A stretch of 64,000 bases of DNA from Amphibalanus amphitrite. Taxonomy: Eukaryota > Arthropoda > Thecostraca > Balanomorpha > Balanidae. Below the pieces are notes generated by a model. It had not been told where the DNA came from. It made no database searches and worked only from the letters and a program-made list of their open reading frames with translations. This document shows, one piece after another, positions 16,710-62,806 of this stretch (position 1 is the stretch's first letter; each line of letters begins with the position of its first letter). The translations under genes were made by a program, and so were the position numbers. The stretch covers positions 1,240,001 through 1,304,000 of the forward strand of contig NW_024881501.1 in the NCBI RefSeq assembly GCF_019059575.1, written 5' to 3'.

Positions 16710-16794
<85 letters not shown>
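16710..16794. repeat. (GGC)n trinucleotide repeat
   Basis: About 28 uninterrupted GGC triplets in a GC-rich block at 16640-16980. Poly-glycine, poly-alanine or poly-proline frames across it have no other sign of being coding. Confidence 0.95.
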
Positions 16795-16795
<1 letters not shown>

Positions 16796-18425: not shown

Positions 18426-18515
18426 ACATGAACTATTTCGAGATATGACTTGAGTGTCATGATTAAAAAACTTTTCCTCAGGACTGTATGTAATTAATGT
18501 TTATGTTTTTTCGGA

Positions 18516-37927: not shown

Positions 37928-38509
37928 TAGTTACTAGCTTGGCTACTTCGAAAGTTATTAGAGAAAAACTTCATTTCTAGCGCCGCCATTTTGATATTTT
38001 GACCCCTCCGACGTCATATTTGACCTGACCTGAAAATGACCCTTGTAAAAATTGTAGGCATTGTCCGTGCATATACCATGCCAAATGCCCTCCCCCTCCC
38101 TCGCTCACTCAATGGCGTTCGAATGGGGCGGGGGGGGGGGGGGGTAAGTCAGGTGCGCGTAAGGTAATTAAATGCTGGGCACTGCTGTTGTCCTTTAGGC
38201 AGAGCGTCTTCTTTGTTATGCCAGCGATATCCAGTAAGTGGTTGGCCTCCTTCGCCGCCGAATATCATCTGAATACATGAATGCGCTAATGCCACGAACC
38301 ACGTGCTTTAAACTGAGATGACGCTTCAGCCGCCGGGAGACGTAGCTGAAAGTTAGCACTTAGTCCTTATTAACAACGTCAAACTACCAGTGAACCTTAT
38401 CACAAAATAGTTTTAAAAAATAATGAAATCAAAATGAGTAAAAGCCGTGTTCTGCAGCTGAGCTTCAGCCGGTGGTGACATATCCATTCTACGGCCTTTA
38501 TAAGACTGA

Positions 38510-38745
38510 CCCAGGTGCCAATCTTCCGGACCGAGGGGGCGTCCATCTGACCCAGGTGACACATCCCACACCGAGGGAGCGTCCATCTGACCCAGGTGAC
38601 ACATCCCCGGAACGGGGGGGGGGGCGTCCATCTGATTCAGGAGACACATCCCGGACCGAGGGGGCGTCCATCTGACCCAGGTGACACATCCCAGACCGAG
38701 GGGGCGTCCATCTGACCCAGGTGACACATCCCCGGAGCGGGGCTG
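38510..38745. repeat. About 40-bp minisatellite
   Basis: Five to six copies of a unit GGCGTCCATCTGACCCAGGT plus GACACATCCCAGACCGAGGG, with local differences. Confidence 0.92.
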
Positions 38746-38989
38746 GTCCAGGTGGCCTGGGTAGCTGACGGTAGGTATAATATACTCACTCCGCCACCGC
38801 TCACACCGGCGCGGCGCGGTGGCTGGCCGCGGCGCCGGCCCGTGTGCCGTGTGACCTTGTGCCGGCTGCGATCGATCCGTCAGGTGCCCCCCCCCCCCCC
38901 CTCCCGCTGCCCGTGAGGCCGTGACGCCACCCCCGCGACGGCCCGGCCCGGCGGCGTGTCGGACGGGCCTCGGGTCAGCCGCGGCAGGG

Positions 38990-39345
38990 AGGCGGACCAC
39001 CGGAGGTCAGCTCTCCCCTCCCAGTCCCAGGCGCCGGCCGCCCTCCCCGGCCCGGAGGCGGACCACCGGAGGTCAGCTCTCCCAGGTCCCAGGCGCCGGC
39101 CGCCCTCCCCGGCCCGGAGGCGGACGGCCGAAGGAGGGCCGAACCCAGTCGGGAGGCGGACGGCCGAAGGAGGGCCGAACCCAGTCGGGAGGTCGGACGG
39201 CCGAAGGAGGGCCGAACCCAGTCGGGAGGTCGGACGGCCGAAGGAGGGCCGGACCCAGTCGGGAGGTCGGACGGACGAAGGAGGGCCGAACCCAGTCGGG
39301 AGGTCGGACGGCCGAAGGAGGGCCGGACCCAGTCGGGAGGTCGGC
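38990..39345. repeat. 37-bp minisatellite and related units
   Basis: From 39115 about seven copies of GGAGGTCGGACGGCCGAAGG plus AGGGCCGAACCCAGTCG. The first 130 bp hold two larger units with CGGACCACCGGAGGTCAGCT. Open frames on both strands are artefacts. Confidence 0.92.
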
Positions 39346-40084
39346 GCCGGAGAGAGCCATGCTATAGTTACATCTGCAGTCACCTCTACCTTAATGTGTG
39401 CGGTTCAACAAATACATAGTCGACCCGGCGCTCGTTGCAGTAATTCATCTACGTGTAGGTATTATTACCAGTTATAGCCAATCAGGTATGATTTCAAGCT
39501 TTTACGACTAGACGTCGTAATTCGACGTACGTTTTTTCGACTACTAGTCGTTTATTGTTTTCGTTCCGAATTTTCGACCTTCGCATCGAGGCCGTCGTCA
39601 GAAATATGGCAACCATGATAATATAAAGCGTTGTGGACACATTTGAAAAACAATCATCATCTCTTAAAACGTGCATATCATCCCTCCAGCTATCTGTAAT
39701 TTGAAACTCTGAATCCCAATGCCAATGAACTAAGGGGTAGGTAATTGTATGACAGAATGACTGGCTGAATGACTGACTGACTAAATGACTGACTGAATGA
39801 ATGAAGGAGAGAATGAATGAATGAATGAATGAATGAATGAATTGAAAAGTGAATGAATAAATCAATGAACGAATGAATGGAAGAATGGGATGAAGTGATT
39901 TTCTACATGAAATACATAATCATGCTGTGACACATTACACAATACTTAGGTGAAAATCACAGAGTGCTTGGTCGTTGGCTCACGCACAGACTTCTCTATA
40001 TATGGAGAAGTCTGTGGCTCATGCCGTACTACCAGCACTGATTCCATAGAGGACTGAATGCGGTACCATCTACTCGTTGATCGT
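39346..40084. other. Intron 1 sequence with (GAAT)n
   Basis: A GAAT microsatellite lies at about 39790-39845. A perfect AGACTTCTCTATATATGGAG / AAGTCT palindrome lies near 39990-40010. No gene recognised. Confidence 0.5.
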
Positions 40085-40770
40085 GTTAGTTAAGGTCAAG
40101 GATTAAGGCGAGGGTTAAGGTCAAAGGTTGACCTCAGGTCACGTTCCCTCAAGGTCATCATGCATGCCATTCATTCCATGCGCCTTGATGAGCTGAACAC
40201 AACTGAGACCATCCGTGCGGTTGTATCTCGTTCCTGTAAGGAGTTATTTGTAAAAGAAGCCTTTGGAGGCCTTTGATGACGTCATATGACCTTACAGCTG
40301 CCCAAGAGAAAAAGGCATCAAGGTAGTCAACGTTGATCGTATATAAAGTCCTTCATGGTAAATGAGTCCATTCCGACGCATTTTAGTGAAAAACATCAGG
40401 CAGTTGGTTTTCCCCTTTGACTAATAATGAGGTCGCGAAATTGACCTGACCTTAGGTCATCGATATCAAAATTCCGAGATACGCAATACTAATGATTTCA
40501 TTACTTCCTGCGACTTTCAAAGGCCTCCGTCATCTTCTGTAGCTCTGACTCGGTGACAAAACTGCAAAGTAGTGATTTGAATTTGGGTCATTCGAAATGA
40601 GCTGGTGACTTGACCTTGAAAGGTAGGAGGTTCAAATTTGCAAACAATGTGTAAAATTGATGGTGAAATAATCATCCCAAATTTCGCGGCCGTAGCACCG
40701 CGGTTTTTCCGCTATTTACGAAAAACCTCAGGGGGTCGGATATCCACCCCCTTACGTCGGTGCGCGGGTA
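40085..40770. mobile_element. Inverted, truncated copy of the 35870 element
   Basis: Reading on the minus strand from 40770, this follows 35870-36600: terminal GCGCACCGACG region, hairpin, GGTAGGAGGTTCAAATTTGC, the ATCGATATCAAAATTCC phrase and GCAACTTTGTC-like text. The terminal TTAA has decayed to GTAA. Confidence 0.6.
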
Positions 40771-40974
40771 AAGTAGGTCAAAAATTGCACCTTTCGTATG
40801 CTATCAACATCTTAATCTCGCCAAAACATGCAAAGACTTTCCGCATCGTTAAAATAAGAAAGACGACAAACGCTTGCGGTCTGGTCGGGCGGACCGACTT
40901 GGCAGCGTGTGCCTGCGAGTGGGCCGACCGCGCCAGACTGTCCTCCGGGAATAACCGACTGAGCAGCCACCGCC

Positions 40975-44588: not shown

Positions 44589-46197
44589 TGACCACTGAAA
44601 ATGTCAAGTTTCTGTGATCTTTTGTTTCGGAGTTATGACCTTGTTCTTCAGGTCATGTCATGACCCAAATGACAAATATCCAATATCTTGCGTTGGCTAT
44701 GGGTCTTGAGAGCTTTTGACACCTTGATTTCGGCCTTTTTTGCCAGTCTTACCTCCCAACTAGCATGAAACATGCTGTTCGACGATGTACAGATGTCAAG
44801 GTCAGGGTCAAGGTGAACCTAGGTCATCTAAAAACATTGCGTTTTAGGCAAGCTGAATTTACTTTTCGTGAACTTTGGCTGTATTTTTGATAAAAGCTTC
44901 TCATTTCATGATATGTAATATGGACACATAAACAATCGGTGCACACATCAGTAGGGGAAGCCGGGGGAAGCCCGGGCGCGGGGGAAGCCCGGCCACCCCG
45001 TTTCCGGCTAAATTATTCACAATAAAATGCTCAACTGTTTGTCCTTTCAGCGTGGCAGCTAAGGTAACGCCAGCAAAAAAGTTAACCCATTTATGCCCAG
45101 GAATATTGACCATCATGAAAATCGACGAAATCAAAATATGTTATGCTCCTACCAGGGCCTTGCATGGAATCGAAAATAATTTTTGCCTGCAGCAAAAGTT
45201 TTTCGAGAAAAACGTAAAAAACATGCGTTGCGAAATCGCAACGAAGGGCACACCGGGCGCCATCAGCGTTGCGAAAACGCAACGACGGGCACACCAGACG
45301 GACATAAAGTATACACTGAACTGCCGTATATGCTAATTTGTTTTGACAAAACATCAATCAACTGTTGACAACTATTGCTTGAAAATGCGGAACCCACATC
45401 CGTCATGCTCTATAACCCGCCTAAGAGCCTCAGTGAGGAAGCATAACTTCATGATTCGCGAACGGGGAGATGGCAACACGGTCATTATCAACCATTTACG
45501 TTGTCCATTGCTGTTCATTTAAAGTTGTGGTCGACACGTATCCAGGGTGATGTTTTCTTTTTGGAAGCTAGACAGAGCCATTACCCCCACCTATCAGACC
45601 CCACACTAATACAATTAAACGAAGGATTGGGAGTAAACCAGTGCCTCACGTATGCGCGTATATCCGCAATCAATAGCCGCGTTTACATAGGGCTAGTTGC
45701 CAGATAGTGGAATTCCACTAACGAGACATTTTTTCCACTAACGAGACATTTCAGGCACCTTCAGATAATTCTGACGACCTATCCGGCCAGAAGGACCAAA
45801 CCGATTGACAAAAATAAATACATCGTGGCGGATGAACACTAAAGAGGTACTTCAGGCCTAGACATAGTATAGATGTCGCAACTCGCGGCCTTCGCGGCAG
45901 TAAGGGCGAGGTATAGATGACGCTTCTGCAGCAAGTCACTGGAACGTGCGAGTCGTGGAATGGAACGGAAGATACGGAACGGGGGCTTCTTAACGGAAGC
46001 TTATTCGTTTTATTTTCATTTAAGAATTGATTTCGTGCGCTAGGGAAAGAACATTGTCTTCTTTTTTCTTACGTCTGCACCCCCCCCCCCCGTCCCTTCC
46101 ATCCTTTGGATCAGCCAGTGTGCAGCAAGAGGGTTCATCGGAGAAAAACAACAAAGAGCAATCCTCCCTGAGCCTGTCAGGTCAGAAATAACCTGAG
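44589..46197. other. Upstream intergenic sequence, no gene recognised
   Basis: AT-rich DNA. At 45228-45296 two GTTGCG-NNN-CGCAAC palindromes are each followed by a GGGCACACC phrase; a counterpart lies inverted at 63672-63741. A terminal-type repeat lies at 45671-45722. AGGTCA motifs occur at 44640-44840. Confidence 0.45.
45671..45722. repeat. CAATAGCCGCG terminal-type repeat, left copy
   Basis: CAATAGCCGCGTTTACATAG through TTCCACTAAC is matched in inverse orientation at 61950-62001 with one inserted base. It is followed by a second TTCCACTAACGAGACATT. The sharp outer border at CAATAGCC suggests a transposon end. Confidence 0.6.
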
Positions 46198-46351
46198 CAT
46201 AGGCGGCGGAATGGGGAGGGCACCGGGGCACCGTGCCCCCCTTTGATTTTGGCATTTTAACATTAGCCCTATGGGCGCTGCATGGAAAGAATGGGACCAA
46301 AAGTCGGCGGTGCCCCCCCCCCCCTCCTTAATTGAAGGTGCTCCGCGGCTA
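46198..46351. mobile_element. TAGGCGGCGGA-ended MITE, copy 1
   Basis: It begins CATAGGCGGCGGAATGG and ends GTGCTCCGCGGCTA, with an internal GGGGCACCGTGCCCC palindrome and ATTTTAACATTA. A second copy in the same orientation is at 63286-63459. Confidence 0.7.
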
Positions 46352-46416
46352 CTGAACCTGATGACCGTTCGTTATGCCCTACTGCCCACGCTTCTTAAAA
46401 TTTCAGTAGTAGTCAG

Positions 46417-46710
46417 TTATCTGGCCAATGTTTCCGTATAGGGGTTGGCAAACACAACTGAGCCTCGTGAGTGGGATGAGTACTGGACACAGAAGTGGAC
46501 AATCTGTTGGCAAGGAGCCCGCAAGGATAATATCTCGAAACTCAGGACTACGTATACAAACACTTTAAAAGCATCTAAATCTATACTATAATCGAAAGCC
46601 GCATTGTTGTGAACTACCGGCACGTGCGTCCAATCACCATCAAGAACGGAAGTCCGACCTACAGCAAGCACGACAGTCCGATCATAGATGTATTGAAAAA
46701 TAACTAGCAA
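46417..46710 (-). pseudogene. Possible PIF/Harbinger-like transposase fragment
   Basis: A 97-codon frame contains VLDGDWTHVPVV, reminiscent of the DGTHVPI region around the first catalytic aspartate in Harbinger-type transposases, followed by an FKVFVYVVLSFEI strand. The rest does not fit a continuous domain and frameshifts are likely. The assignment is tentative; it may be unrelated. Confidence 0.22.
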
Positions 46711-47079
46711 CTTTAAACATCGCCTTCCTCAGCCACGCTCTACACCGCATCACATAAGAAAACCGCCAATATCGATTACAAAACACACATAAAGGAATTT
46801 CGTAGGTAGAGATCAGAGGAATACTTCACCTCCTTTATCTGGCGCGTCAATAGGTATAAAGTAATCTTTGGCGTCTACGCACTAGGAACATCTATAATGC
46901 AAACAGCAGTTCAGAAACCATCCACTAAAATTGCAACAAGGCAAGGGTTGGTCAAAATAAATTATAGTCACCGTGATAAATAGCAAACGAAATACAGAAC
47001 GAGCAAGCACAACAAAGCATTCCACACTCGTTTAGACTGTACCTACAATATGCCTACATAAGACATTGCAGCAGTGTAC

Positions 47080-47380
47080 AAGGGAAACATTCTTTAAAGA
47101 TGCTAACGTGAGGAGTTTTAAAAGTTTGGTGAACATAGTTACGAGTCACTGCACAAGAAATGTCGCGGTCGCCAGCCGGCCCAGGCGAAAGAGTCGACGG
47201 AGACGGCGTCAAACAAACCCGAGAGGGGGTAGTTTCATCCGCATCAGCGGAGGCGCTCTCTCTGTTAAGGTCGTCAGTTACCAGCCGCAGCACCCTGCTG
47301 GCGATTTGATAGCTGCTCTCATTCTCAGCTGGCTGAGCGCCATGTGCCGGGTCATCCGGCTCCATGATTTCCCCTTTCAT
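47080..47380 (-). pseudogene. Retroelement-like coding fragment
   Basis: The frame has DDPAHGAQPAENE and SSYQIASRVLRLVTDD, loosely like the linker after RNase H in the Gypsy element at 51.7-56.5 kb (DDPAPEDEEAE, HQLASVLSRLATDG). It could equally be the tail of the LINE just upstream on the minus strand. Confidence 0.35.
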
Positions 47381-47399
47381 TAGCAGCTGCTGTTGTAGT

Positions 47400-48110
47400 T
47401 ATTGTTGTTGCGTTCCTTTCAGCTGCTGCCGCAGCATAGCCGTACGGTTCTGGATGGTTCTCACGGCGGCAGCCAGGGTCACCAAATCCGTCTCCCCGTA
47501 GCCACACCAGACTCGGAAAAATGTACCGAGATGTACCGAGCCAATGTTGCAGCACTCGCGGCATTCATCGGTAGGACTCCGCCCAACCCAATGTCGGCAC
47601 TGGCAGGAGCCCGACCAGTGGTCCAAGCGAAACTGATGAAAATCGACAGCTGATGAGCGGTCCTCCACTGACGCCGGACGGGTGGCGACGGCGCGGCCGG
47701 TCCTGGAGCTGGAACAGCAGAATGGACCGGATAGACGGCGGTCGACCCATATCGACCGGTACCATCCGTCCGGCCAGCTCCTCCAACACCGCTCTTAGGG
47801 CGAATAGCTCGCCGCGCGTGCTAGAGCAGAGGGCGCCTGCCGCGACACGCACCTCTCGGATGTCGCGGTTCGGGGGGGGGGGGGTGGCCCCTCCTCCTCC
47901 ATCTAGCACACCATCGGTGGCGGAGCTGTCTGACCAGATCAAGCTCGCCTCAGACGGGAGCTCCGCCAGACGACTTTCCGCCGCCTTGGCTCGCCAGCCG
48001 TCGCGCCCAAACTCGCTTCAGGCCGTGAGTCTATAGCCGGCGCGGTGGCGTGGCTTCGCCATGGTAGCCTTGGGCGGGTTGTCCTCAGAGAACGCATTCG
48101 CATTGGCGAG
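47400..48110 (-). pseudogene. LINE fragment: RNase H domain and C-terminal region
   Basis: Minus-strand frames carry ANAFSEDNPPKATMAK, then SLIWSDSSATDGV and REVRVAAGALCSSTRGELFA, an RNase H core with its aspartate and glutamate as in I/Jockey-group LINEs. After a frameshift near 47680 comes LDHWSGSCQCRHWVGRSPTD with a following Cys-rich segment. An in-frame stop occurs near 48020 and a C-run interrupts the core at 47872. The copy is dead. Confidence 0.75.
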
Positions 48111-48149
48111 GAGGCGAGCAGCGCCACGAGTCCTGAAAAGACCAAACAA

Positions 48150-51100
48150 TATCAATAGACAATCAAAACTGTAAAAATTGGCATTAACTGCGCAACTGAT
48201 GTTTGCTTGTTTGTTTATTAGGGTTTACGGGCGCTGCGGTGGTCATTTTGCACCCATGAAGCTGTTCTGGTGAACCTGCGCAACTGAGCAGTGATCATGC
48301 TATAACTTATGTTTGGCGTAGTACCAGGGTTCCAACTCCACCTAAAATTTCGGCGCACGTCAGGTGTAACGTCACATGCGACAAATTCAGCGCATGTCAG
48401 TTGGGCAAACTAAGGCTGATGGAATAATATAAAACGAGGGCACCAACAATTGATCCTAAATGACCATACTTGGACATTAATGCAGACCCTCTCTGTATCA
48501 CCAATTGTCAGAAAACAAGCGGTTTCAAGGAGCGTTAGAGAGTCATGAAGCCAGGATAAAACACAGTGCTATTTTCTAAAAACAGTTTTTACATGATAGA
48601 GTTGGGCAACTCTCTCCCTCTCTCTCCGTTTACTATTCGCAAGGCCAAAAAGGCCAATTGGTTTTGAAAGACATTGGATTACAAGCTGAGAATTTTTTAC
48701 TTTATCATAAAATGTTAAACCTGCGTGTAGATAAAGTCTGAACGGTGGTTTGTAGGCTGATAGGTTGGAGGTTGAAGGTTAGTAGGGAAGTTAAGGTCAG
48801 GATAATTTCTGCTTTTTATTTTCATTGGACTTCAGTCTTCATCAACACACGCATCAAAAATATCATCTATTTGAGCATCTTCAAGCCTCAATATACAAGT
48901 TGTACCACAAAAAATTAAAAATTGATGTCATGCCAACATATGGTCATGATTTTTACCACCAGAATTGAATTAAATGCCTATTGATGCTTTACCTAATATT
49001 TTGAAGCCTGAAATCTGATTAACCAAACATTTTTTTTCTTGTGTTGGCAGTCTAAAATTTGGCTGGCTTGAGCGCGATGCTATTGCTCTAGCAGAATCTC
49101 AAACGGATGTCTACCAAGTGCCACTCCCAAGAAAGTTTTTCAAGATTCTAAAACCACAAACTTTGTTGCTGCCTGATCGTGTGATGGTAAATCAAATGAT
49201 AGCACTCCGTCTGAGGCCAGTTTTACAAACAGAAAATAGCCACCTGCCGGATTATTTTGCCTAAAGGCTAATTCACATATGGAGTGTAGGTAAATGGTGA
49301 AGCCCTCACTGCTTACATGCCTATCGCGTTTACCCTCTGTATGTTGTACCTACGTGGAATGGATATATGAGGAGAAAAATTCCAGGCAGCTATTTTTGTT
49401 GGTAAATCGGGTAAAGTAAAACTGGCCTCTGAACGAAAATTTGGACTGAGTGAGATGTCGGCTCTTTGGTGGTTTGGATAGGAGTTGATGATTTTAATTG
49501 AAAGATTAAAAGGAAAGGGCAGGGGCGCGGGAACTACTTTCCGACTGGGGGGGCACACCATAATAGAGATCAACCTAGGGTACCCCCAAATCTAGTTTTC
49601 TCACCGGTTTTAGGCCACTTATTTTTCACCCCTCGGCTTTTTCAACAAAAAAAGAAAACATTTGCAAAAAAAAGTGTGGTATTCCGTCTCAAAGATGTGG
49701 GGGCACCGCCCCCACGGCCCCAGAGTTGGGGGGGGGGGGGGGCAAGCTGCCCCCACTGCCCCCCCGGCTCCCGCGCCTATGGGAAAGGGTTTCAAGACAA
49801 TCGGCATGACAAACCAACACCTTACCTGCAGTTCAAGTTTGTCGATTTCTTCATCAAAATCTAGTCTTCGTCTAGTCCACAAATCAAGATAAAATTACTG
49901 GATAGGTACAACTTCTTCTTCTTCTTCTTCTTCTGCACCTCACCTGCCACCCCCTACACTTCTACCTTATTCTGATAAATATCTTTACATAATTTTCACA
50001 AGAATGCCACTCAACGGGGTAGATCTAAAAGAGTGCAGGGCTTAAGTTTTGAGCTACAGAGTTCTCAGTGATTTTGAGACACCCAATATGTCTTTGGCAC
50101 GCCGTATTTGTCTCTCACCGCTTGCGAATTCGGCGATATGATTGGTCGAAGGCCGAGGCTATGGGTCCAAGAAAAGGCCAAGATTCCTGCCAAGATTCTT
50201 ACAGATAGCCAAGACCGATGACTGACGTGACTGACGGCATGTTACTGCCCTTGGCATATTGCCAATGCACTGCTCCGTCATATCGGCAGTGATGTCAACA
50301 GTCATATCGGAAGTAATATGGTAGCTAAACGCAAAAACCATTTGGTGTATGGCTACCATACTTTTCCGATAACGAGACATTCTAGATCAATCTCTCTACT
50401 GTTGGCGACATCTGCTGAGAAATCCCAAGACCGAACGCAAGCACATAAAAGTAATGCACTCTAAGGATGCGTTCGAAATCTGGGAAGTGACGGATTTCAT
50501 TCCTCAATGCGTGTCCCAGCGTTCCCCATGCTGTTTGTTCCGCCATCTATTGCCATGTTTCGCATTCGCACTTCATGAATTCACCACCCCGCCAAGTAGG
50601 TTGGTATCAAGTTGGTATAGGTGTCGCATTGCTCTGGTCGATTAGGCTGAGCCAGCTGTCTGGAGAGTGGAGCCGATCCAAAAAACGCAGAAATTCAAAA
50701 CACCGACTCCAAAGCAATGGCAATTGGCAGCATGCATATCGACATTAGAGCGTAATTCTGTCGTGATTGCGTCAGAAGCAAACATAATGGCAAGAGTTTC
50801 TTGTGTGTCGGTAGGCGCGTGTGGAGTCGCTGGACCGACCGGGGACGTACCCAAGGGGGGACGGACGGGGTGCGCCTCCCCCCTAGGGGTTTTCAGGGCC
50901 CATGCTGGCAGAAGGCCAACGTTGGCCAAAATCACGTCGGAGACGAACGAAATTCATGGGAATCCCCCAAAAAATCACGTCAGGACTCAGGACAATCAAG
51001 ACTCTCCGACTCGCCTGCCACCTAGGGCCCTTCAATTTACTGCGTGGGGCCTCCTGTGAATAACCGCTAGTGTCTGTGTCTGACCACTAGGACCCTGGAC

Positions 51101-51685
51101 CCCTCTGACTCCTCGGGTAGAGGGCCCTCTGTAGGTAGGAGGCTCTCTCTACGGGATTCCTCCGCTCCCCCCTCGGCCAAATTCTAGGTTATACGTGCCT
51201 GCGTTAAGCCGGGGTCGGAGAGAGGAGTTGACGACCGAATGACAAGGAGTACTCGTCCTGAAAGTAAACATTTGGAATATAAACAATCCAAAGCTGTTCA
51301 GTATTTATATCATTCGAGAGCAGTGCCTTCAATTTGGATACACTTAGCATTCATTTCCCACACCCGTGTACACTCCACGAAGGCTTCTCCGCTGCGGACT
51401 CCTGCTTCCGCCGATGCGTCAGTTCTGTTATGGTCGGTAGTGGCGATTAACACGGCGATATCCTTGGAGCGACACAGGACGACCGAAACACGATGGCGGC
51501 GACCATGGAACTGTTTATTTTTTATGTGCTTCCATATGACCGGGGGGGTGAGACCAAATGAAGGGAAAGGAAAACGTGCCCCATCACAACACCCCCCCCC
51601 CCCTCAAGACGCATGCGTCGGTACAAGATACGCATTGCGTCTAACACATAAACAAAAATGTACACCACACACGGTGTGGACGCAC
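48150..51685. other. Intergenic sequence with degenerate repeats, no gene recognised
   Basis: 48150-49500 is AT-rich with no domains. 49530-49790 is a G/C-run element with GCGCGGGA...CTCCCGCGCC ends. (TTC)n lies at 49911-49933. 50080-50400 shares phrases with 61520-61670. 51211-51600 was searched for a 3' LTR of the Gypsy element; none was found. Confidence 0.4.
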
Positions 51686-51689
51686 GAAC

Positions 51690-53699
51690 TCAGTCGTACG
51701 TCTGGTCCGCCCAGCGCACGGTCAGTCGGGCCGGACGGCGACGGCGGCGCGTCCCACGGCGCACTGAGCTGGGGTCGTCGGCGCTGTTCCGCAGCACCGG
51801 TGGTGCCGGCTGTCCGCCCGCCGGCGCAGCGGCGGCGGTCTCCTCCGTGCCGTCGGGTGCCGAGCTCGGAGCGAGCTGCTGCCGGCGCCCGGGTGCAGGT
51901 GTGGCGGCGCCCTCCGAGATGAGAGATCTCTGGGGTCGCAGATAGCGCTGGTTCCGCCAGTAGACTCGGCCACTGGGCAGCCGGACCAGGTAGTCGCGCC
52001 GCTGCCCGACCGCCGTGATGACGCCGACGCGGTCCCACAGCCCCGACCGCGGGTCTTGGACGAGCACACGCTGACCCATGGTGAGCGCGCTGTGCTGGCG
52101 GGCTGTCGTGTCGTACCGCTCGACTGTTTCCTGTTGCTGCGCGGCGGCCCTGGCGTCACAGTCGTCCGCCGCCCGCTGCCAGCAGTCGGCGAAGGCCCGG
52201 TGGTGCGCCGGCACTGCCGATCTCAGCGGGTGGCCGAACAGGACCTGAGCCGGAGAGCGGCCGTCGGCGCGCGGCGTGTTGCACAGCTCCAGCAGCCCCT
52301 GCGCGTAGGCGTCCGTGTCGAGCTCGCCGCTGCTGGTCGCCTTCTGGATGAGCCGTTTGGCGGCCTTGACCGCCGACTCGGCGTGCCCATTAGACTGAGG
52401 GTAGTGCGGTGTAGAGATCTGGTGCTCCACTCCCCAGCGGCGCAGAAACTCTCGGGTGAGCCGGGCGGTGAACTGGTGTCCACCGTCTGTCCGGAGGGTG
52501 GTGGGCACGCCGGTGGCCGCGAATATCTGGCGCAGGCTGCAGACCAGGTCTCTGGCAGTCGCCTCGCCGGCCACGTGCGACACAAACGGCCACCCGGACA
52601 GCCGGTCCGCGTATACCAGGAACGTGCGGCCGGCCCAGGCGAAGTAGTCAGCGGAGACAGCCTCAAGCACTCGTGATGGCGTCTTTTCCGGCATCAGCGG
52701 CTCCTTCTGCTGACTGGGCAGGTACTGCTGGCAGGCCGGGCACGCTCCGACATGGTTCGCAATGTCACTGTCCAGGAACGGCCAGTAGACTACCTGCCGC
52801 GCGCGGCGTTTGGTGCGCTCGACGCCCTGGTGACTGGCGTGCAGGCGCTCGAGCGTGGCGCGCCGCAGACTGGGCGGTATCACGAGCCGCTGGCCGCACA
52901 CCACCAGGCCGTCGTCCACGGCCAGCCGGTCCCGAACTCCCCAGTACGGTCGGAGGCGCGGGTCCAGCTGTGACCGGTGCTCTGGAAACCCGTTCAGGAT
53001 CAGGTCAGTGACTGCGATGAGCTCCGGATCGGCGGCGGCGGCGGCGCGCACCTCTGTCAGCGCCGCGTCTTTGAACGGGCTGGGACCGTCGTCCGCCCCG
53101 TCGGTGGCCAGCCGTGAGAGCACGCTGGCGAGCTGATGGCTGGCGTCCCTCTCGGCTTCCTCGTCCTCAGGCGCCGGGTCATCCACCGGCGCGCGCGACA
53201 GCGCGTCCGGGATGGCGTGCAGCTTGCCTTGCCGCCAGATGGCGAGCAGGTTGAACGGCGCCAGCCGTTCTCGTAGCCGCTGGAGCCGCGGATTTTCGAT
53301 CTCCGCAAGGCTCTTACTGTTGAGGATCGGGATGAGCGGCCGGTGATCGGTCAGGACTTCAAACCGCTGCATCCCGCCGAGATAGATGCTGCATTTCTTG
53401 CAGGCCCAGGCCAGGGCCAGCAGCTCCAACTCGATCACGGCGTACCGCGACTCGGCGTCCGATAGGAAGCGTGAGCCGCACTGGATCAGTCGCCACCGGC
53501 CTGCGGCGTCTTGCTGCAGCAGGCAGTAGCCCAGGCCGCCGGAGCGAGCGGCGTCAGTCTCAAGGACTGTGCAGCGGCGAGGGTCGAAGAAGTCGAGCAC
53601 GGGAGGCGACGTGAGTGCCATCTTCACCGCGCTGAACGCCTGCTCGTGCGCTGGCGTCCACAGCCACGCGTTCCGCGGCCGCAGCAGCTGTCTCAGCGG
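51690..53699 (-). pseudogene. Gypsy pol: RNase H and integrase
   Basis: Counted from the Met at 53627: RNase H with VLETDAA (D25), ELELLALAW (E66/E68) and LTDHRPL (D94). Then the integrase zinc finger H263/H266 and C296/C299, and the catalytic core with D327 (VSADYF), D381 (RTDGGHQF) and E417 (NGHAES), giving the D-x35-E spacing. The C-terminus has LVQDPRSGLWDRVGVI and YLVRLPSGRVYWRNQRYLRP, typical of Gypsy integrase tails; no chromodomain is evident. The frame is open for 645 codons but separated from the reverse transcriptase by the stop at 53700. Confidence 0.92.
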
Positions 53700-54580
53700 C
53701 TAGGCGGCGGCGGCGACCTCTGGGGAGAAGGCGCCGAGCTGGGTCACCAGGCCGAGGAACGACCGTAGGTCGGTGATGTTGCCCGGCCTGGGGAAGGCCT
53801 GGATGGCACGGACTTTCTTGCCGTCGGCGGTATAGCCAGCCGAATTGATGCGAAAGCCGCAGAATTCGACCTCGTCTTCCGCGAACTGACATTTGTCCGG
53901 GTTGAGTGTGATACCGTGCTGGTCACACCTTAGCAGAATCTGCCGCACGTGCTGCAGGTGGGCGGCGTAGTCAGCGTCATAGGCCAGGACGTCGTCCACG
54001 ACCTTACACGTGCGCGGGATGTCGCCGAGCGCGGCGTCACCGCGCTGGTTGTACACGTCGCCAGAGCTGACGATTCCCATTGGAGCCCTCAGGTACCGGT
54101 AGCGGCCCCACGGCGTGATAAAACACGTCAGGTCTCGTCTCTGTCTTCTGGCCGGATGGGGACCTGGTGGTACCCCGCCTTGCTGTCCAGCTTGGTGAAG
54201 TACGCAGCGCCGGGTGAGACGAAGGCGAGTGCGTCTTGAGGCGAGCGGACCGGGTACGTCGGTCGCTTCACGAACCGGTTCAGTTTCGTGAAGTGCACGG
54301 TCAGCCGACAGCCGGACACTGTGCCGTCTGACGACCCCTTGGCCACAGGAACGATCGGATGACACCAGTCTGTGGGGTGCTCCACCGGCTCGATGATGTC
54401 CTTTTCCATCAGCTCGTCGAGTTGCAGTCGCACGTCCTCTCGCCAACAGAACGGGATATTCCGGGCGGTGGTCACAGCGTGAGGGACGGCGTCGTCTGTC
54501 AGCTCGATCTTCATCGGCTCCCCCGTCATCTTCCGCAGGGTCGACTCCGTATCGAAGACCCTCGGGAACTCGGCTTTCAA
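53700..54580 (-). pseudogene. Gypsy pol: reverse transcriptase (two frames)
   Basis: The first part (54580-54128) holds VFDTESTLRKMTGEPMKIEL, the HPTDWCHPIVPVAK region and motif A LDSKAGYHQVPIR. The second part, in a different frame from about 54125 to 53700, holds WGRYRYLRAPMGIVSSGDVY and the catalytic KVVDDVLAYD. It ends with FLGLVTQLGAFSPEVAAAA and a TAG in a GCC-rich stretch. All catalytic residues are present; only frame and stop defects mark it as inactive. Confidence 0.9.
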
Positions 54581-54599
54581 TTTGTCGAAATCTGCCCGC

Positions 54600-55724
54600 C
54601 GCTGCCGTGCGGAGGGGGTGCCACCGGCGGCCGGGCGGCGGCGCGCGCGTAGGGCCGGGCGGCGGCGCCCGCCCGGTCGGGTCGGCGCCGGCCGAGCTGG
54701 CGGCCGGCCGGTCGGCGGCAGAGACGCGGCTTATGTCCCGGGTCTCCTCAGGTGCCGCCGTCGTGCCGCTGCAGCGCCGTAGTGCGGGCTGTCTGCCGGC
54801 GGCGGGGGCCTCAGGCGGCTCGCCGGGCGGCGGCGGCTCCGGTGCCCCACCGTCCGTCCCAGTCTCGGCTGCCGAGCCGCGCTGGCAAATCTGCCGGGGA
54901 AAGCTCGCCGGTAGAATTCCCAGGCCGATACAATCGTGCCACGACAGCAGTGGTGAGTGCAGTGCTCGCAGAACGGACACCTGCACGGTCTGTATGACGT
55001 CACCGAGCTGAAGGGTGAGGGCGCACGTGCCCACACAGTCCAGCCGGCGGCTGTCGGCGGCCCACAGCACAGCCGTGGAGGGCGTGAGGTCCGCTCTGCT
55101 CACTCCCATGGACTCGGCTTGTTGCAGTGAGAGGGCTGATATCTCGGCGCCTGTGTCGGGCGTCCATACGGTCGTCCGCCTGACTCCGTTTGGCAGGTGC
55201 AGCTGTAGCCGGACCTGCGGCGACCGGTGGGCCGTCACACTGTTGAGGCGCGCGCCCGGCGTCCGGGCTGCCGGCGGCGCTGACTGCTGCCGGTTCCCCG
55301 TGTCTCTCGTGGTTGCATTCGCTGCCAGCACCGAAACCTGCCGGTGCGACGCGTCGGCAGCCGTGCTGACACGGCGGCGGCTGATTGCGCTACGGTGGCG
55401 CCGGCCCCTCCCCTGGCGGCTGCTGCTCGCGCTACGGAAGCGCCAGTCCTGTCCCTGGTGGCTGCGCTCGGAACTAGGCGTCTGCCGGCGCCGCTCTTCA
55501 GTGCCCGCGGCATGCCGACAGACCGAGGAAAAGTGGTCCCGTTCGTGGCCATCGGTGGCAGGTGCGACCCAGGGCGGGGCAGGCACGACCGTCCGTGTGC
55601 TGCGCGGCACCGCAGCGGTCACACCGCCGGGTCTGGTCGGCCGAGCGCGAGTCCGCGCCGCTCGGCCGACCGCGCTGTCGCCGGTACTCGGAGAGCCGGC
55701 GCAGAGACGGCTCGCCCGGGCCAC
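54600..55724 (-). pseudogene. Gypsy pol: protease region
   Basis: The frame contains RRTTVWTPDTGAEISALSL, with the DTGA active site of a retropepsin, and a downstream hydrophobic LLSWHDCIGLGILPASF segment matching the flap-to-ILG part of the domain. Before it lies a low-complexity Arg/Ser-rich stretch overlapping the end of gag in another frame. After 54600 this frame continues but no longer resembles pol. Confidence 0.8.
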
Positions 55725-56493
55725 GGATCGCCGAGCTGTTGAGACGGGCGCTCTCGGACGCCCGGCACAGGTCGGCGGCCATCTGGAAGGTCAGATCGGG
55801 CAGTTCCAGCATGCGGCGTCTGGCCTCGTCATCACTGGTGCCCACCACCAGATGGTCTCGGAACCTATCATCGGTGCAGTTCGGGCAAAAATCACAGCAG
55901 GACGCTATCTCCTTCAGGGCGCAGATAAAATCGTCCACTGACTCGCCTGGCTCCAGCATCCGCATGTTAAACTCGCAGCGGTCGATCACCACGTTCCGCT
56001 GCCGCCGAAGGTGGGTGTGCATGGCGGTGATTACATCGGCCATGGACGCCTCGGCCGGGATGGGCAGGCCAAACCGGACCACGCGGGCCCAGTCGTCGTC
56101 GAGAACAGCGAGCAGGGCGGCCCGCTGCTCAGCCTCGGTGAGATCGTGGACGCCGGTGAGGAGGCAGTAGCCGGAGAACTTCTCTTTCCAGGCCTCAAAC
56201 TCCTTGAGGGTAGCGGTAGCCGCCAGCCGGGGCGTGGGCGTGCCGGCGGCGGGCATGCGTGCACGCGGCCGGGCGCCGGAATCGGGCCCCGCGGCTGCCT
56301 GGGCGGGTGCCGTGGCGTCCTGCACGGCCGTCGGGCCGGGAAGCACCCGCTCCAACAGCGCCGCCATCCGCTCCTCACGTCGCGCTGCCGCTGCAGCCAG
56401 CTCCAATTGCTGCTGCAGCATGCCCCGAAGTAGCTCCATCTCAGACGGCTTCTCGGCGGCGGCGGCCGACTGCGCCTCATCGCCGCCCGCCAT
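55498..56493 (-). CDS. Gypsy gag
   Basis: A 331-codon frame has an N-terminal coiled-coil-like segment (LLRGMLQQQLELAAAAARRE), then capsid-like FEAWKEKFSGYCLLTGV, and MRMLEPGESVDDFICALKEI. A single Cys-His knuckle-like motif CDRCGAAQHTDGRAC sits near the end. The last 20 residues appear frameshifted. Its base composition is GC-rich and it is clearly a different lineage from the gag at 57934. Confidence 0.8.
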   Translation of the reverse strand: MAGGDEAQSAAAAEKPSEMELLRGMLQQQLELAAAAARREERMAALLERVLPGPTAVQDATAPAQAAAGPDSGARPRARMPAAGTPTPRLAATATLKEFEAWKEKFSGYCLLTGVHDLTEAEQRAALLAVLDDDWARVVRFGLPIPAEASMADVITAMHTHLRRQRNVVIDRCEFNMRMLEPGESVDDFICALKEIASCCDFCPNCTDDRFRDHLVVGTSDDEARRRMLELPDLTFQMAADLCRASESARLNSSAIRGPGEPSLRRLSEYRRQRGRPSGADSRSADQTRRCDRCGAAQHTDGRACPALGRTCHRWPRTGPLFLGLSACRGH

Positions 56494-56576
56494 CTTGGAC
56501 GCGCGCGCCGCACACAGATGTCACTCGCGACTGGCGACACGAGCATGAATCAGAGATTATCCCAGCCGCTCGCCAG

Positions 56577-57250
56577 GTTTCGTGCCCCACCCCACGCCAG
56601 CCCGTCACCGACTTCAGTCGGCTGGGCGGCCCATCTTCCGCGATAGTCCTGAGGGCTTGCCCTCGGGGAGCGCGTGCGCCTTGGCGAAGAGCTTCGCTAC
56701 CAGCACGTCTCGCCGGGCGGCCAGCGGGCACCGGCATCAGTCCGGACTTCACCATCACTGCGTGGGCTGGGATAAACAAGGGGCAGCCGGTGATATACGG
56801 GTCACCGCCTGCATCTCCCTTTGGAGGAGTTCCACGTGGGATTGTGGCGTCACCGGGAGCCAGGTGGCGGCCGCGTGCACCAGCACTCCACGGACGTATC
56901 CAGACGCTACAGCGCAGAGCTGTCGTTCCTCTAGTCCCCAGCGCCGCGCTGTCAGCTTGCGAAGCTGCTGGATCCGGGGCGCACTCGGGAGCGGAGACTG
57001 CGGCAATGGGCCCCGAAGTGAAGGAGCAGGTTGAGGGGGTGGCTCCGAGTAGTTTGAGACGGTCGGCTGCTGGAACCGACTTTCCGTCGACTTTGATGGC
57101 ACAGTCCACGGCGTCCGCGGCGCTCTAGGAGACGACGAGCAGCTGCGTATTTCACCCGCTACCAGCATCTTGGACTGTTTTGCCCAGCGCAACACAGCGT
57201 ACGTCGTCTGCCGCGTCCGGCCCCAGTTCAGTATCGTCTGTTTCCATTAA
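56577..57250 (-). pseudogene. LINE fragment: C-terminal part of reverse transcriptase
   Basis: Minus-strand frames contain VLRWAKQSKMLVAGE, DCAIKVDGKSVPAADRLKLL, HFGAHCRSLRSRV, QLRKLTARRWGLEE, CAVASGYVRGVL and a final RLKSVTGWRGVGHETWRAAG. This is the thumb/connection region of I/Jockey-group LINE reverse transcriptases, spread over three frames. It ends exactly where the Gypsy element begins. Confidence 0.75.
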
Positions 57251-57363
57251 CACTCTGAAATGACAAAATAATTAGCCATTAAAATCAAAGTTCAGCACTG
57301 ACGAAGTTTAACCAAACTTGCCATTTCAACATAACACAGTGAGCTGTCAGAATGCTGTTCTTT

Positions 57364-57572
57364 TGTGCTTTGACACAGTTGCAAAATAGGTACCTTCATA
57401 CGTATATCATAGAAGTAATTACTGGTTATTATTATTGGAGGATTTTTTTGCAGCATTCTCGTCAAGTAAAATACATTATCTTCTTTAAAAGGACCATAGT
57501 GTGAGGTGTAAATACAGTCTGTAAGGTTGTCCAGACTAATTGTGCCCCTATTTGTACGGTCTGGGCTGGAGC
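57364..57572. repeat. Left terminal inverted repeat
   Basis: About 209 bp from TGTGCTTTGACACAG to GTCTGGGCTGGAGC. It pairs along its whole length with 60535-60744. Confidence 0.93.
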
Positions 57573-57933
57573 ATGTACTGTTGGCATGTTTGCACGTCCA
57601 CTTTGGATTAATCTGGCTTGCTAAGCGAATGCGATGGCAGCGCCTTGCATTGCTTGCATGCGGTGGTTGGCATTGTTGGGAGGTGTTCTAACTATCTGTT
57701 TGTCCCGCTTTGCCCACAGCGTCGACTGGGTTGAATATACTTGTATTTCTGAGTGAACAGTTTCTCACATTTGGAGGCAGCCATTCAACCCAGTCTGGAA
57801 CCCACTCTTGCTTCCGAAGACGCTTGAGGTGGCAGAATTCCAGCAAGTCAATGATTTTTTTTTGTGATAGCGTGGATGAAAAAGTTCAAGCACTCTCTTT
57901 AAAGTAGCGGCCAAGGAGCCACGGACACAGGAC
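57573..57933 (+). promoter_or_regulatory. Leader of the gag gene with candidate splice acceptor
   Basis: TTTGTCCCGCTTTGCCCACAG at 57699-57719 is a strong-looking 3' splice site (pyrimidine tract and CAG), so the gag transcript may have a spliced leader. After it, 57826-57907 has coding-like text (QQVNDFF, DSVDEKVQALSLK) broken by a T-run and a TAG at 57905. This may be an eroded N-terminal extension of gag. GACTGGGTTGAAT and its complement 50 bp apart could form a small hairpin. Confidence 0.4.
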
Positions 57934-58743
57934 ATGGCGTGTGCCCCTGTTAAGCCAGACAGATTTAATGGTTCTGGTGATGTGGAAAGATTCTTGGCCC
58001 ATTTTGAAGTGGTGTCAAAAGCCAATGAGTGGTCAGAACAAAAGCAGTTCCTGCAGCTCCCTGCCTGCCTGACTGGACCAGCTTTTGATTTTTATCGCCA
58101 GTTGCCTGCCATGGAGTGTACTGACATTCACACACTGAAAAAGGCGCTCAAAGCTGAGTATCATACACCAGCTCTCCCTACAGATTATGCCATCATGCTG
58201 TCCAAGCGTTCACGCATGCCCGGAGAAACTGTCATGCAGTATGGCGAGGCTTTGAAGAGCCTTGGCAGGAAAGCATATGCTCCCTTCAGTGAAGAACAGT
58301 TGGGAACTGTTTGTCGCTCCACATTTCTGAACAATGTTGATGAAGCTATGAGAGTGCAGTTACTACTGACCCTGAAGGAAACAGAAAGTTACAGGGACCT
58401 ACTGCAAAGAGCTCGACAGCTGGAGCAGGTAATGGGACCTCGTGTACGTCATATTGAGGAACAGTCTCAAGAGCACCGCCTGGAGGATGAGGTATCCAAG
58501 CTGTCCCTGGTTGTGGCGAATCTGGAGAAGAAGGTGGATGCACTCCAGGCAGGACGACAGGAAAGGACTCACAGACGTTCACCGCCGGGGCCGTGTCCGA
58601 ACTGTGGCCTGGAGGGGCACTGGCGTAGGGAATGTACCAAGCCCAGTAAGGATCGACAGCAGACAAGTGCTGCAGAGGTTATTTGCTTCAAATGCAATAC
58701 GCCTGGACATTTTGCTAAGGGTTGCGCGGCCCATTTTCAGTAG
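57934..58743 (+). CDS. Retrotransposon-type Gag with two CCHC zinc knuckles, intact
   Basis: The 269-codon frame is uninterrupted. The ATG has G at -3 and G at +4. Residues about 8-190 form a Retrotrans_gag-type capsid region (KPDRFNGSGDVERFLAHFEV, LPACLTGPAFDFYRQLPAM, RSRMPGETVMQYGEALKSLG). A short coiled coil follows (EDEVSKLSLVVANLEKKVDA), then knuckles at about 221 (CPNCGLEGHWRREC) and 251 (CFKCNTPGHFAKGC), both C-x2-C-x4-H-x4-C. It stops five residues after the second knuckle, with no protease or pol following. Codons are not GC-biased, unlike the adjacent Gypsy gag and junctophilin. Such a protein would be expected to self-assemble and bind nucleic acid; that is inferred from the family. 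Confidence 0.9.
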   Translation: MACAPVKPDRFNGSGDVERFLAHFEVVSKANEWSEQKQFLQLPACLTGPAFDFYRQLPAMECTDIHTLKKALKAEYHTPALPTDYAIMLSKRSRMPGETVMQYGEALKSLGRKAYAPFSEEQLGTVCRSTFLNNVDEAMRVQLLLTLKETESYRDLLQRARQLEQVMGPRVRHIEEQSQEHRLEDEVSKLSLVVANLEKKVDALQAGRQERTHRRSPPGPCPNCGLEGHWRRECTKPSKDRQQTSAAEVICFKCNTPGHFAKGCAAHFQ

Positions 58744-58879
58744 GCGCGGCTGGCGGGGGTGGGCGGAGAGTGATTCGTACCTCTGTACGTCCACTTTACC
58801 CCGAGTCGGCCGCGCCTTGCAGCTGGAGCGCGGATTACCTGAACGGTGATGTTGTGTCGTCCTCCGTATGGAGGCCGGC

Positions 58880-60540
58880 CGCGGCGGCCCGCGGCTCGTC
58901 GGTGCGTGGATCTTAGAGCCGGCCCGCTCCGGCCGGCGGCTCGTCGGCGCTGGAGTCCAGTAGCGCGCCTGCTGCGGCCGGCGGCTCGTCGGTGCGTGAA
59001 TCCTGGAGCGCGCTCGCTACGGCCGTCAGCTCGTCGGCGCTGGAACCCTGGAGTCCGCCCGCTGCGGCCGGCGGCTCGTCGGCGTTGGAGTCCAGTGGCG
59101 CACCTGCTACGCTCGACTACTCGTCGGCACCGGACCCCCGTGGCGCGCCCGCTGCGGCCGGCGGCTCGTCCGCGCTGGAGTCCAGAAGCGCGCCTGCTGC
59201 GCTCGGCTGCTCGTCGGCGCCGGACCCCGGTGGCGCGCCTGCTGCGGCTGGCGGCTCATCGATGCTGGAACCCTGGAGCCCGCCCGCTGCGGCTGGCGGC
59301 TCATCGATGCTGGAACCCTGGAGTCCGCCTGCTGCGGCCGGCGGCTCGTCGGCGCTTGAGTCCAGTGGCGCGCCTGCTACGCTCGACTGCTCGTCGGCGC
59401 CGGACCCCCGTAGCGCGCCTGCTGCGGCCGGCGGCTCAACGGCGCTGGAGCCTCGGGGCGCGCCTGCCGCGGCCGGCGGCTCGGCGCTGGAACCTCGGGG
59501 CCCGCCTGCTGCGCTCGGCTGCTCGTCGGCACCGGACCCCCGTGGCGCGCCTGCTGCGGCCGGCGGCTCATCGGCGCTGGAGTCCAGTAGCGCGCCTGCT
59601 GCGCTCGGCCGCTCGTCGGCGCCGGACCCCGGTGGCGCGCCTGCTGCGGCTGGCGGCTCATCGATGCTGGAACCCTGGAGTCCGCCCGCTGCGGCCGGTG
59701 GCTCGTCGGCGCTGGAGTCCTGCTGCGCTCGGCCGCTCGTCGGCGCCGGACCCCGGTGGCGCGCCTGCTGCGGCTGGCGGCTCATCGATGCTGGAACCCT
59801 GGAGTCCGCCCGCTGCGGCCGGCGGCTCGTCGGCGCTGGAGTCCAAAAGCGCGCCTGCTGCGCTCGGCTGCTCGTCGGCGCCGTACCCCCGTGGCGCGCC
59901 TGCTGCGGCCGGCGGCTCATCGATGCTGGAACCCTGGAGTCCGCCCGCTGCGGCCGGCGGCTCGTCGGCGTTGGGGTCCAGTGGCGCACCTGCTACGCTC
60001 GACTACTCGTCGGCACCGGATCCCCGTGGCGCGCCCGCTGCGGCCGGCGGCTCGTCGGCGCTTGAGTCCAGTGGCGCGCCTGCTACGCTCGACTGCTCGT
60101 CGGCGCCGGACCCCCGTAGCGCGCCTGCTGCGGCCGGCGGCTCATCGGCGCTGGAGCCTCGGGGCGCGCCTGCCGCGGCCGGCGGCTCGGCGCTGGAACC
60201 TCGGGGCCCGCCTGCTGCGCTCGGCCGCTCGTCGGCACCGGACCCCCGTGGCGCGCCCGCTGCGGCCGGCGGCTCGTCGGCGCTGGAGTCCGGTGGCGCA
60301 CCTGCTACGCTCGACTACTCGTCGGCGCCGGACCCCGGTGGCGCGCCTGCTGCGGCTGGCGGCTCATCGATGCTGGAACCCTGGAGCCCGCCTGCTGCGG
60401 CTGGCGGCTCATCGATGCTGGAACCCTGGAGCCCGCCCGCTGCGGCCGGCGGCTCGTCGGCGCTGGAGTCCGGTGGCGGGCCTGCTGCGCTCGGCTGCTC
60501 GTCGGCGCCGGAATCCCGTAGCGCGCCTGCTGCGGCTCCA
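58880..60540. repeat. 45-bp minisatellite (15-residue period)
   Basis: About 36 copies of a 45-bp unit in two alternating subtypes: GGCGGCTCGTCGGCGCTGGA plus GTCCAGTAGCGCGCCTGCTGCGGCC, and a variant with TGCGCTCGGCTGCTCGTCGG and CCGGACCCCCGTGG. All lengths are multiples of three except near 59720, so every frame is open: Ala/Pro/Ser (GGSSALESSGAPAAA-like) in one, Arg-rich in another. It is most likely a VNTR. It lies inside the inverted repeats and meets the right one at 60535. Confidence 0.95.
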
Positions 60541-60744
60541 GCCGAGGCTGTACAAATAGGGGCACAATTAGTCTGGACAACCTTACAGACTGTATTTACA
60601 CCTCACACTATGGTCCTTTTAAAGAAGATAATGTATTTTACTTGACGAGAATGCTGTAAAAAAAAACCTCCAATAATAATAACCAGTAATTACTTCTATG
60701 ATATACGTATGAAGGTACCTATTTTGCAACTGTGTCAAAGCACA
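60535..60744. repeat. Right terminal inverted repeat
   Basis: The complement of 57364-57572. The outer end is TGTGTCAAAGCACA and the inner end GCTCCAGCCGAGGCTGTAC. Confidence 0.93.
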
Positions 60745-62806
60745 TGTAAAACAACCATTCCCGCAATTGCTCCTTCTCAGTGGAATTGGGAGTGGAAAAT
60801 TGGGCTTGAAAACTGGAGGTGAGAGTGGAAAATGATTTGCATTTGGATGTCGTTTCCCACCCACATCTACAAATTTTGGGACACTGCGCAGCAGTCAATG
60901 CACATTATGGTTCAGTCGCAAGCCTTGCTTTAATCAACGAAAGAAAATTATTTGCTCTATCATGCATCATGAATTAACGAAATTTTTGTTCATATTTTTT
61001 TTTTTTACCTTTTCTCATAATTTCATGCACACCTTAAAATCATGAAACTGTAGCGAGCAACTGATTTGAAGATAGAAAAGTCCTTGCTACATTTCTCGAC
61101 ATTATCAAAACATCTTTTTCCAAACATACCTATCAACATCCTGGAAATATGAGACTTAGCAATATATTGAGGTTCCATACCCTTGACAAGGCAAATGCAC
61201 CAGCTTTTAAACCAAAACAACTTTACCAACTTTTAAATAAATTTGTGACTTCCATTGATACTCCCATACAAAAAATCATTGTTGTTGCCTGCTGGATCGA
61301 AAAGCGAAAGAGCGCCCTCGCCCCTTCCGTGAGACCTGCACAAACTTACCAGGAGTCTGCAGTCAGAACACGACACCGTAATCATATTGAAAAAGGGCAT
61401 AGCGTATAGAAGAGTAGCAACTAGCGTCTCACTGACCTTAGACCAAAATATTTCTCTTCATGATATCCACGCAAGGCCAATGCAATGTATGTAGATAGGC
61501 ATATCAATACAGAAATGATATGTCCAAATATGTCTTTGCCGCGTCATAGTTGTAACGCACTACGGGGATCTCCAGAGATCTGATTGGCTAATATTAGCCA
61601 ATCAGTAGCATATGTTACTGGAAACTGTCATAGTGGAAGTAAATTGGTAGCTGTTTCAGCTACCAAATTGATGAAGGAAATAGGGAAAATTGCTTATTTT
61701 ACACGAACACCAGTCATACGCTAATCAAAGTAGAGCTAATGAGAATGGCATTATCCCACGAAGGAAAGCCAATTTGCCACGTAAGCCACCATGAATAGAT
61801 TTGCTGAGCTTGTCATCACGTGTTTTTAACAAAAAAAGTCAATGAAATCATGTAATTTACGAATTTCTAGCACTCACATGCATATTTTCGTCTGCACACC
61901 GAATTGCGTCCAGGATATTGGCCATGGCGTATTTCTCGTGAACCCTCTGTTAGTGGAAATTCCACTATCTGGCAACTAGCCCTATGTAAACGCGGCTATT
62001 GTTAACCACCCTCCTAGGAGTAAAGTTAAATTCCATTGCAGGTTAGTCGTACCCACTCTCAGCAAAAAGAAAAAAAGGACCGATCCGGCTCTAACAAATA
62101 ACCCGCGTAAGGCGTAGCGCATCACAACAAATCGACTCCCAGTTTATCATGTTTATTGTTTACACCTAATCCAAAATTTTCATGGCCCCACTCTCAGCGA
62201 CCTTCACGTGTAACCTCTTTCTCGAGACAATGCCAGGACAGAATGGTGATTCGACGTCAATCCGTCCTTTCCATCTTCAGGATAGTTGAATCCTCCTCCA
62301 CGCCTCAACCCCCTGTTCCGGGCTGGACCGGCAACGTATATCGCAATCGGGCAGCTCACATAGGAGCGCGCCTGTAGCCGGGTGCAGTGAGTGCTTGGGA
62401 GGGGGTAAGGGGGTGGGTCATGGGTGGCCTGACCACTGGCTGGGCTCAGTCTCCAGTCTACGATTAACCGTGTCCGGTCAGACAAATGTCTCCCCTAATT
62501 CCAATAATCCTGCTAGCTCTAAAAATGGTCTGATTAGATAAAAAGCCTATCAAAGCAAGAAAACAAGCGTATACTCTACATTAAGCAGCTTATGAATCTA
62601 TGCGAGTTATGAATCCTAAAAATCATTATTTTCCCAGGTCCGCCCTCATTACCCCTGCCGAAGGGCTCAGCTACCCCCAGAGCTACCCCCAGAGCTCAGC
62701 TACCCTATCCCACTATTTGCCGACCCTCAGTTATCTTTTCTAACGTAAATGTTGGTAGTCAGCAGATTCTATCCAGAGAATGGCGATGCCTATCGGTCGC
62801 CTGATA
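60745..62806. other. Intergenic sequence, no gene recognised
   Basis: AT-rich. A GGCTAATATTAGCC palindrome lies at about 61586-61599 and GGTAGCTGTTTCAGCTACC at 61649-61667. Phrases at 61520-61560 recall 50090. The inverted partner of the 45671 repeat is at 61950-62001. A weak open frame at 61149-61409 shows no domain. Confidence 0.4.
61950..62001. repeat. CAATAGCCGCG terminal-type repeat, right (inverted) copy
   Basis: GTTAGTGGAAATTCCACTAT through CGCGGCTATTG, the complement of 45671-45722. The repeat again ends sharply at the CAATAGCC border. Confidence 0.6.

Follow-up and report, generated by a model that had tools for sequence, protein, structure and literature searches.

Does a gag gene enclosed by long inverted repeats, with no pol beside it, represent a transposon class built around gag, or the remains of something more familiar? 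The locus that raises this question lies in the window, by which we mean the whole stretch of 64,000 nucleotides analysed (C4:1240001-1304000), and we searched the genome to which it belongs, an assembly of 807.6 Mb in 2644 contigs. A left arm (57364-57572) and a right arm (60535-60744), each of about 210 bp, stand in inverted orientation with 97.1% identity (blastn E 1.9e-97), and between them lie an uninterrupted Gag frame with two CCHC knuckles and no pol that we could find. In these respects the original prediction is borne out. The arm-gag-arm arrangement is not a new transposon class: very probably, the locus is a rearranged 5′ piece of a Ty3/Gypsy element, nested in a larger DNA transposon with terminal inverted repeats (TIRs) and spread as its passenger. 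The parts between the arms are as follows:

57573-57933: leader stretch, 361 bp between the left arm and gag
57934..58743, plus strand: Gag ORF of 269 aa, uninterrupted, with two CCHC knuckles
58871..60536, plus strand: GC-rich tandem array with a 45-bp unit, its length differing among copies

The Gag protein matches Pfam zf-CCHC (E 1.7e-8), and its stop codon follows immediately after the second knuckle, as in the Gag family. The tandem array had been overlooked in the original prediction; base composition shifts at the end of gag, with a CpG observed/expected ratio of 0.46 in gag (TpG 1.48, CpA 1.33) against 1.14 in the array. No target duplication was found at the edges of the arms, and a candidate extension of the arms beyond 57364 (GAATG...) did not exceed chance expectation (P about 0.06). 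The uneven spacing of the arm differences (3/20 against 2/188, Fisher P 0.007) was considered as a sign of gene conversion, a reading that we rejected, as the same left/right differences recur across many copies; because they are kept in this way, the differences predate the spread.

A genome search with the arm, in which the best 40 of 90 candidates were scored, gave 19 inverted pairs including that of the window, all of which enclose the gag, together with two unpaired arms. Outside the window, arm, leader, gag and post-gag sequence follow one another in identical order at every one of these loci (20/20, made up of 18 pairs and two unpaired), so that the module of arm, leader and gag is present in 21 copies; at L027 the left arm is shortened to 88 bp, and at L028 both arms are incomplete or split. 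A query with the leader returned 25 candidates, all of them scored and accounted for by the 21 modules, three hits within a single Gypsy element on contig C40, and one solo LTR on contig C70. Sequence outside the arms is common to all 18 other pairs; the shared stretch measures 300 bp on the left side and 233-300 bp on the right. The arms are thus not the outer limits of the repeat, and the view of them as boundaries of a mobile unit falls away.

The leader points to the origin of the gag, which had been described as lacking LTRs. An LTR begins within the left arm:

57500..57769, plus strand: 5′ LTR (270 bp, TGTGAG...CTCACA) belonging to the Gypsy that bears the gag; the inner left arm consists of its first 73 bp
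57772..57779, plus strand: PBS-like TGGAGGCA, 2 bases past the LTR

The LTR terminus CTCACA occupies 57764-57769. A start at 57364, which would give a TGT...ACA repeat of 407 bp, proved wrong. Matches to CA-N0-4-TGG are expected by chance 1.6 times per 361 bp, and we take TGGAGGCA, from its resemblance to a tRNA 3′ end, to be a candidate only. The same LTR is observed as two directly repeated copies at C40:1333690 and C40:1344663, identical in 269 of 271 columns (one LTR having been cut one base too long) and with GTAC on both outer sides, and as a solo copy at C70:293499-293770. Paired direct TG...CA ends with a duplication in the 4-6 bp range are therefore found on C40, of which the window copy keeps only the 5′ LTR. 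The C40 element gave Pfam matches to Asp_protease_2 (4.6e-5), RVT_1 (1.2e-31), RT_RNaseH_2 (1e-36), Integrase_H2C2 (3.8e-19) and rve (4.9e-15), in the order gag-protease-RT-RNase H-integrase, and between gag and protease it has a 45-bp array, as the window copy has after its gag. This element is itself damaged: a 2.17-kb piece composed of its own inverted parts interrupts the gag, and its pol is spread over more than one ORF. Similarity to the window copy is high throughout (LTR 96.7-97.0%, leader 93.9%, gag 97.9%, post-gag 97.6%), whereas the window copy has no protease, RT, RNase H, integrase or 3′ LTR and ends on the right in an inverted copy of its own start and of the DNA upstream. The apparent TIR-gag unit is therefore a Ty3/Gypsy element from its LTR through leader and gag into the beginning of its repeat-coded linker. 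That the arm might be an ordinary direct Gypsy LTR, which the original prediction had named as the reading opposed to its own, holds for the inner 73 bp but not for the outer 136 bp.

The outer 136 bp are explained by copies of the surrounding repeat that have the outer left end and lack the module's gag, on contigs C22, C408 and C440. All three align unbroken through 57042-57500 and then diverge into a common sequence beginning TTTGTACATCC, with GGACCATAGTTTTGTAC in common at the insertion site, which is thereby seen uninterrupted. The two that could be traced far enough, C22 and C408, resume at window position 60741, the outer edge of the right arm, and in neither was a second, inverted arm copy found; the examined stretches of the three contain no gag (best tblastn E 0.31). 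The gag-bearing Gypsy sits in the outer element where ...GGACCATAG and TTTTGTAC... meet, at 57499/57500. Because the gag-less copies run through it unbroken, 57364-57499 is plain outer-element sequence, and because they cross the arm's first 136 bp and then continue differently, the arms are not the ends of an element. The gag module replaces the outer-element sequence beyond 57499. The two arms then read as follows:

57364..57499, plus strand: left arm, outer 136 bp, consisting of normal sequence of the outer element that continues the left flank in C22, C408 and C440
60535..60744, minus strand: right arm, an inverted copy of 57364-57572, that is, the LTR's first 73 bp and 136 bp of outer element

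Since two unrelated sources are joined in it, the right arm cannot be a transposon end.

What actually transposes is considerably larger, and its spread together with the gag is likewise observed directly:

45674..61998, strand not assigned: composite outer TIR element of about 16.3 kb, mobile as one unit, AGCCGCG...CGCGGCT
45671..45722, plus strand: outer left terminal inverted repeat, pairing with 61949-62001
61949..62001, minus strand: outer right terminal inverted repeat, pairing with 45671-45722
60745..61998, plus strand: right part of the outer element, common to gag-less copies, which resume at 60741-60744

As in TIR DNA transposons, the ends form terminal inverted repeats, 98.1% identical over 53 aligned columns. 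A first look genome-wide gave 440 candidates for the left end, of which 40 were scored; alignment to the window begins at 45675 for copy C721 and at 45670 for copy C206, and several copies end at about 62000 in window coordinates. The right end was found in 13 of the 17 copies tried, in 12 distinct flanks, with C94 and C945 being the same. Both ends could be read in 11 rows representing 10 loci, and at nine of these loci the ends AGCC...GGCT are bordered by matching duplications of a fixed 3 bp (AAT, ATT, ATG or GAT); the window copy has AAT and ATT at its ends and no matching 3-bp duplication. None of four ORFs from the left and middle parts had a Pfam match (E 0.01), and no transposase was found in these. 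In C721 the outer element interrupts what looks, on visual inspection, like a Gypsy RNase H frame.

The decayed Gypsy next to the gag belongs to the same larger repeat:

51426..56558, minus strand: nested Gypsy with protease/RT/RNase H/integrase matches, one LTR lost
51426..51589, minus strand: its single remaining LTR, TGTTATG...CACAACA, placed by eye at the junction against the short copies C12 and C4b

It has one in-frame stop between RT and RNase H; its position inside this repeat had been overlooked. It is present in some outer copies, while C12 and C4b have 176-180 bp of other sequence in its place, and the copy on C945 has the same ORF breaks with 19 differing columns over 5.4 kb. It is a second nested insertion, unrelated to the gag-bearing Gypsy.

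We suggest the following history. A Gypsy element would have inserted at 57499/57500 of the outer element; a template switch during repair or replication, presumably after that insertion, may then have deleted the pol and 3′ LTR of the Gypsy along with some outer-element sequence, the gap being filled by an inverted copy of 57364-57572 that would have created the apparent TIR. Such a switch would be the simplest maker of the join within the right arm. Finally, a transposase acting on the 53-bp ends would have moved the outer element, and the module with it, to new sites. Among the three origins put forward by the original prediction, an inverted duplication around a gag insertion fits best, given a right arm made of 136 bp of outer element and 73 bp of LTR in inverted order. 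Capture of gag by a DNA transposon is true only of the large outer element, which acquired it through nested insertion, and a TIR class built around gag is unsupported, since outer copies that lack gag reveal the arm edges to be no element ends.

The separate short Gag is a feature of its family. A protein search gave 13 relatives, and a profile search gave 28 among the best 8000 candidates scored; in an alignment of 26 relatives, 23 end within 8 residues of the last CCHC knuckle, and a separate short Gag ORF is therefore the family norm. No Gag-Pol fusion was found among 1158 candidates of 500-1580 aa, and scans of viral contigs and of genome contigs gave no confirmed relative. The capsid region claimed for this Gag finds backing in its aligned relatives, 7/26 of which match Retrotrans_gag (E 0.1). 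PNMA is matched by 5/26 at that threshold, and the window protein itself matched neither.

Whether the gag is also kept by selection is a separate matter. It is open in 17 of the 21 copies, those at L009, L012, L016 and L020 being broken, and the open copies hold 9 synonymous and 10 nonsynonymous variants (pN/pS 0.34). The nonsynonymous share, 10/19 against an expectation of 0.765, is lower than expected (one-sided binomial P 0.020, with no correction for transition bias or for the relatedness of the copies). Among the copies that align without gaps, L020 excepted, no more than 9/810 bases separate any one from the window gag; at such distances few inactivating changes are expected, and the openness of the gag is mostly what youth alone would give. 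We therefore regard the gag as passenger DNA, open mainly through the youth of its copies, and the deficit of amino-acid changes leaves room for selection. A rival view credits selection, acting for host or outer transposon, with preserving the cargo in place of youth; its evidence lies in the 17 open copies and in that deficit, but the closeness of the copies and the four broken ones speak against it, the copies being related and the test consequently not independent, and we hold it to be improbable. A fuller version, in which the large TIR transposon took up an LTR-promoted gag as lasting cargo, possibly transcribed from the LTR and selected since its capsid helps carrier or host, appears distinctly improbable. 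A domesticated Arc-like capsid locus is unsupported: in place of the low-copy, selected gene of the Arc/PNMA type there are 21 copies, 4 of them broken.

Three other explanations deserve weighing against the nested and rearranged Gypsy. A gag-carrying TIR transposon with the 210-bp arms as its ends, sitting inside the outer element, would account for 19 inverted pairs with the same gag in each and for arms 97% identical; it is very improbable, given that the flanks are common to 18/18 pairs with no target duplication at the arms, that the arm's first 136 bp occur in C22 and C408 without gag or second arm, and that the LTR of the gag starts inside the arm. For a non-autonomous DIRS1-like retrotransposon the probability is minute. 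Such elements (PMC3266345) resemble the window module in having inverted repeats that flank a gag-type gene, with no duplication at the arms, whereas the module has no internal complementary region (the outer 70 bp of either end share 0 9-mers with the interior) and no tyrosine recombinase was seen. The gag belongs, moreover, to an element whose complete relative on C40 has Gypsy-type LTRs and DDE integrase domains in place of the tyrosine recombinase and methyltransferase of a DIRS1-like element. An assembly artefact is suggested by contigs that are likely duplicates, C94 and C945 having common outer flanks, but the arrangement recurs within 12 or more different outer flanks, its left and right arms differing in a consistent way, and we consider this reading hardly credible.

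The nested and rearranged Gypsy thus illustrates how a truncated LTR element that has gained a local inverted duplication can pass for a new transposon class if one copy is read, and how copies of the surrounding element settle such cases. It also provides a countable case in which a DNA transposon has multiplied an open gag of retrotransposon origin, with 21 module copies and 12 distinct outer right flanks among the 13 read. In the part of the literature covered, on gag between TIRs, inverted LTRs, autointegration and domesticated gag, no description of such an arrangement appeared among the matches listed. TR-GAG elements (PMC10025401), plant non-autonomous LTR elements with gag only and two direct LTRs that move as LTR elements, share with the window module a gag without pol; the module differs in having one LTR and an inverted partial copy, only 73 bp of the second repeat being LTR. 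Troyka (PMC12440569) makes 3-bp target duplications like those of the outer element, but its CG...CG LTR ends differ both from the inverted AG...CT ends of the outer element and from the TG...CA ends and 4-bp duplication of the gag Gypsy. A further likeness is to composite TIR transposons with nested insertions, in which passenger retrotransposon DNA likewise travels with the outer TIRs, here into 12 distinct right flanks; what sets the window copy apart from these is that its passenger has a gag that is open, together with an inverted duplication resembling terminal repeats.

When the region corresponding to window positions 51426-57500 was compared among copies of the large outer transposon from the same genome, all four combinations of presence and absence were found for its two nested insertions, the gag module and the minus-strand Gypsy element:

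Both gag and Gypsy: the window copy and C945
gag without Gypsy: C12 and C4b (C4:805-816 kb)
Gypsy without gag: C22
Neither: C440

The finding of every combination suggests exchange between the outer copies, by recombination or gene conversion. The nested Gypsy element itself carries one in-frame stop, between reverse transcriptase and RNase H (window 53700-53702), and since the ORF lengths of its C945 copy are identical to those in the window, this stop is either older than the spread of the insertion or tolerated.

Variation is also evident within the gag module, where the 45-bp array that separates gag from the right arm (window 58871-60536) differs among copies; across 18 measured copies, the distance from the gag stop to that arm ranged from 1529 to 3229 bp. 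The public record P0001 encodes the window Gag with a single change, G258R, which is carried by 6 of the 17 gag copies with an uninterrupted ORF in this genome.

Other repeats and fragments lie in the window:

15913-18425, 35868-40773, 20056-20476, 37072-37448, 26527-27333 and many others: further long inverted pairs
18494-19111, plus strand: reverse transcriptase fragment (RVT_1 match, 3.9e-8)
47402-48017 and 56480-57246, minus strand: ORF pieces of the outer element, resembling LINE RNase H and reverse transcriptase ends by eye, with no Pfam matches at E 0.01

The inverted pairs are likely MITE or foldback families. Some have related tips (TTTGAAGGTGGGAGGGTC), and such pairs are also present within the gag-less cargo of C22. 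The reverse transcriptase fragment appears Penelope-like by eye.

In the related Gypsy element on C40, which has a direct LTR pair, gag is split (L075, C40:1334788-1336955) by inverted parts of the element itself, comprising the pol end and part of an LTR together with a linker array. The inverted pieces are 99-100% identical to their source sequences in that element, and the interruption might be a trace of self-integration.
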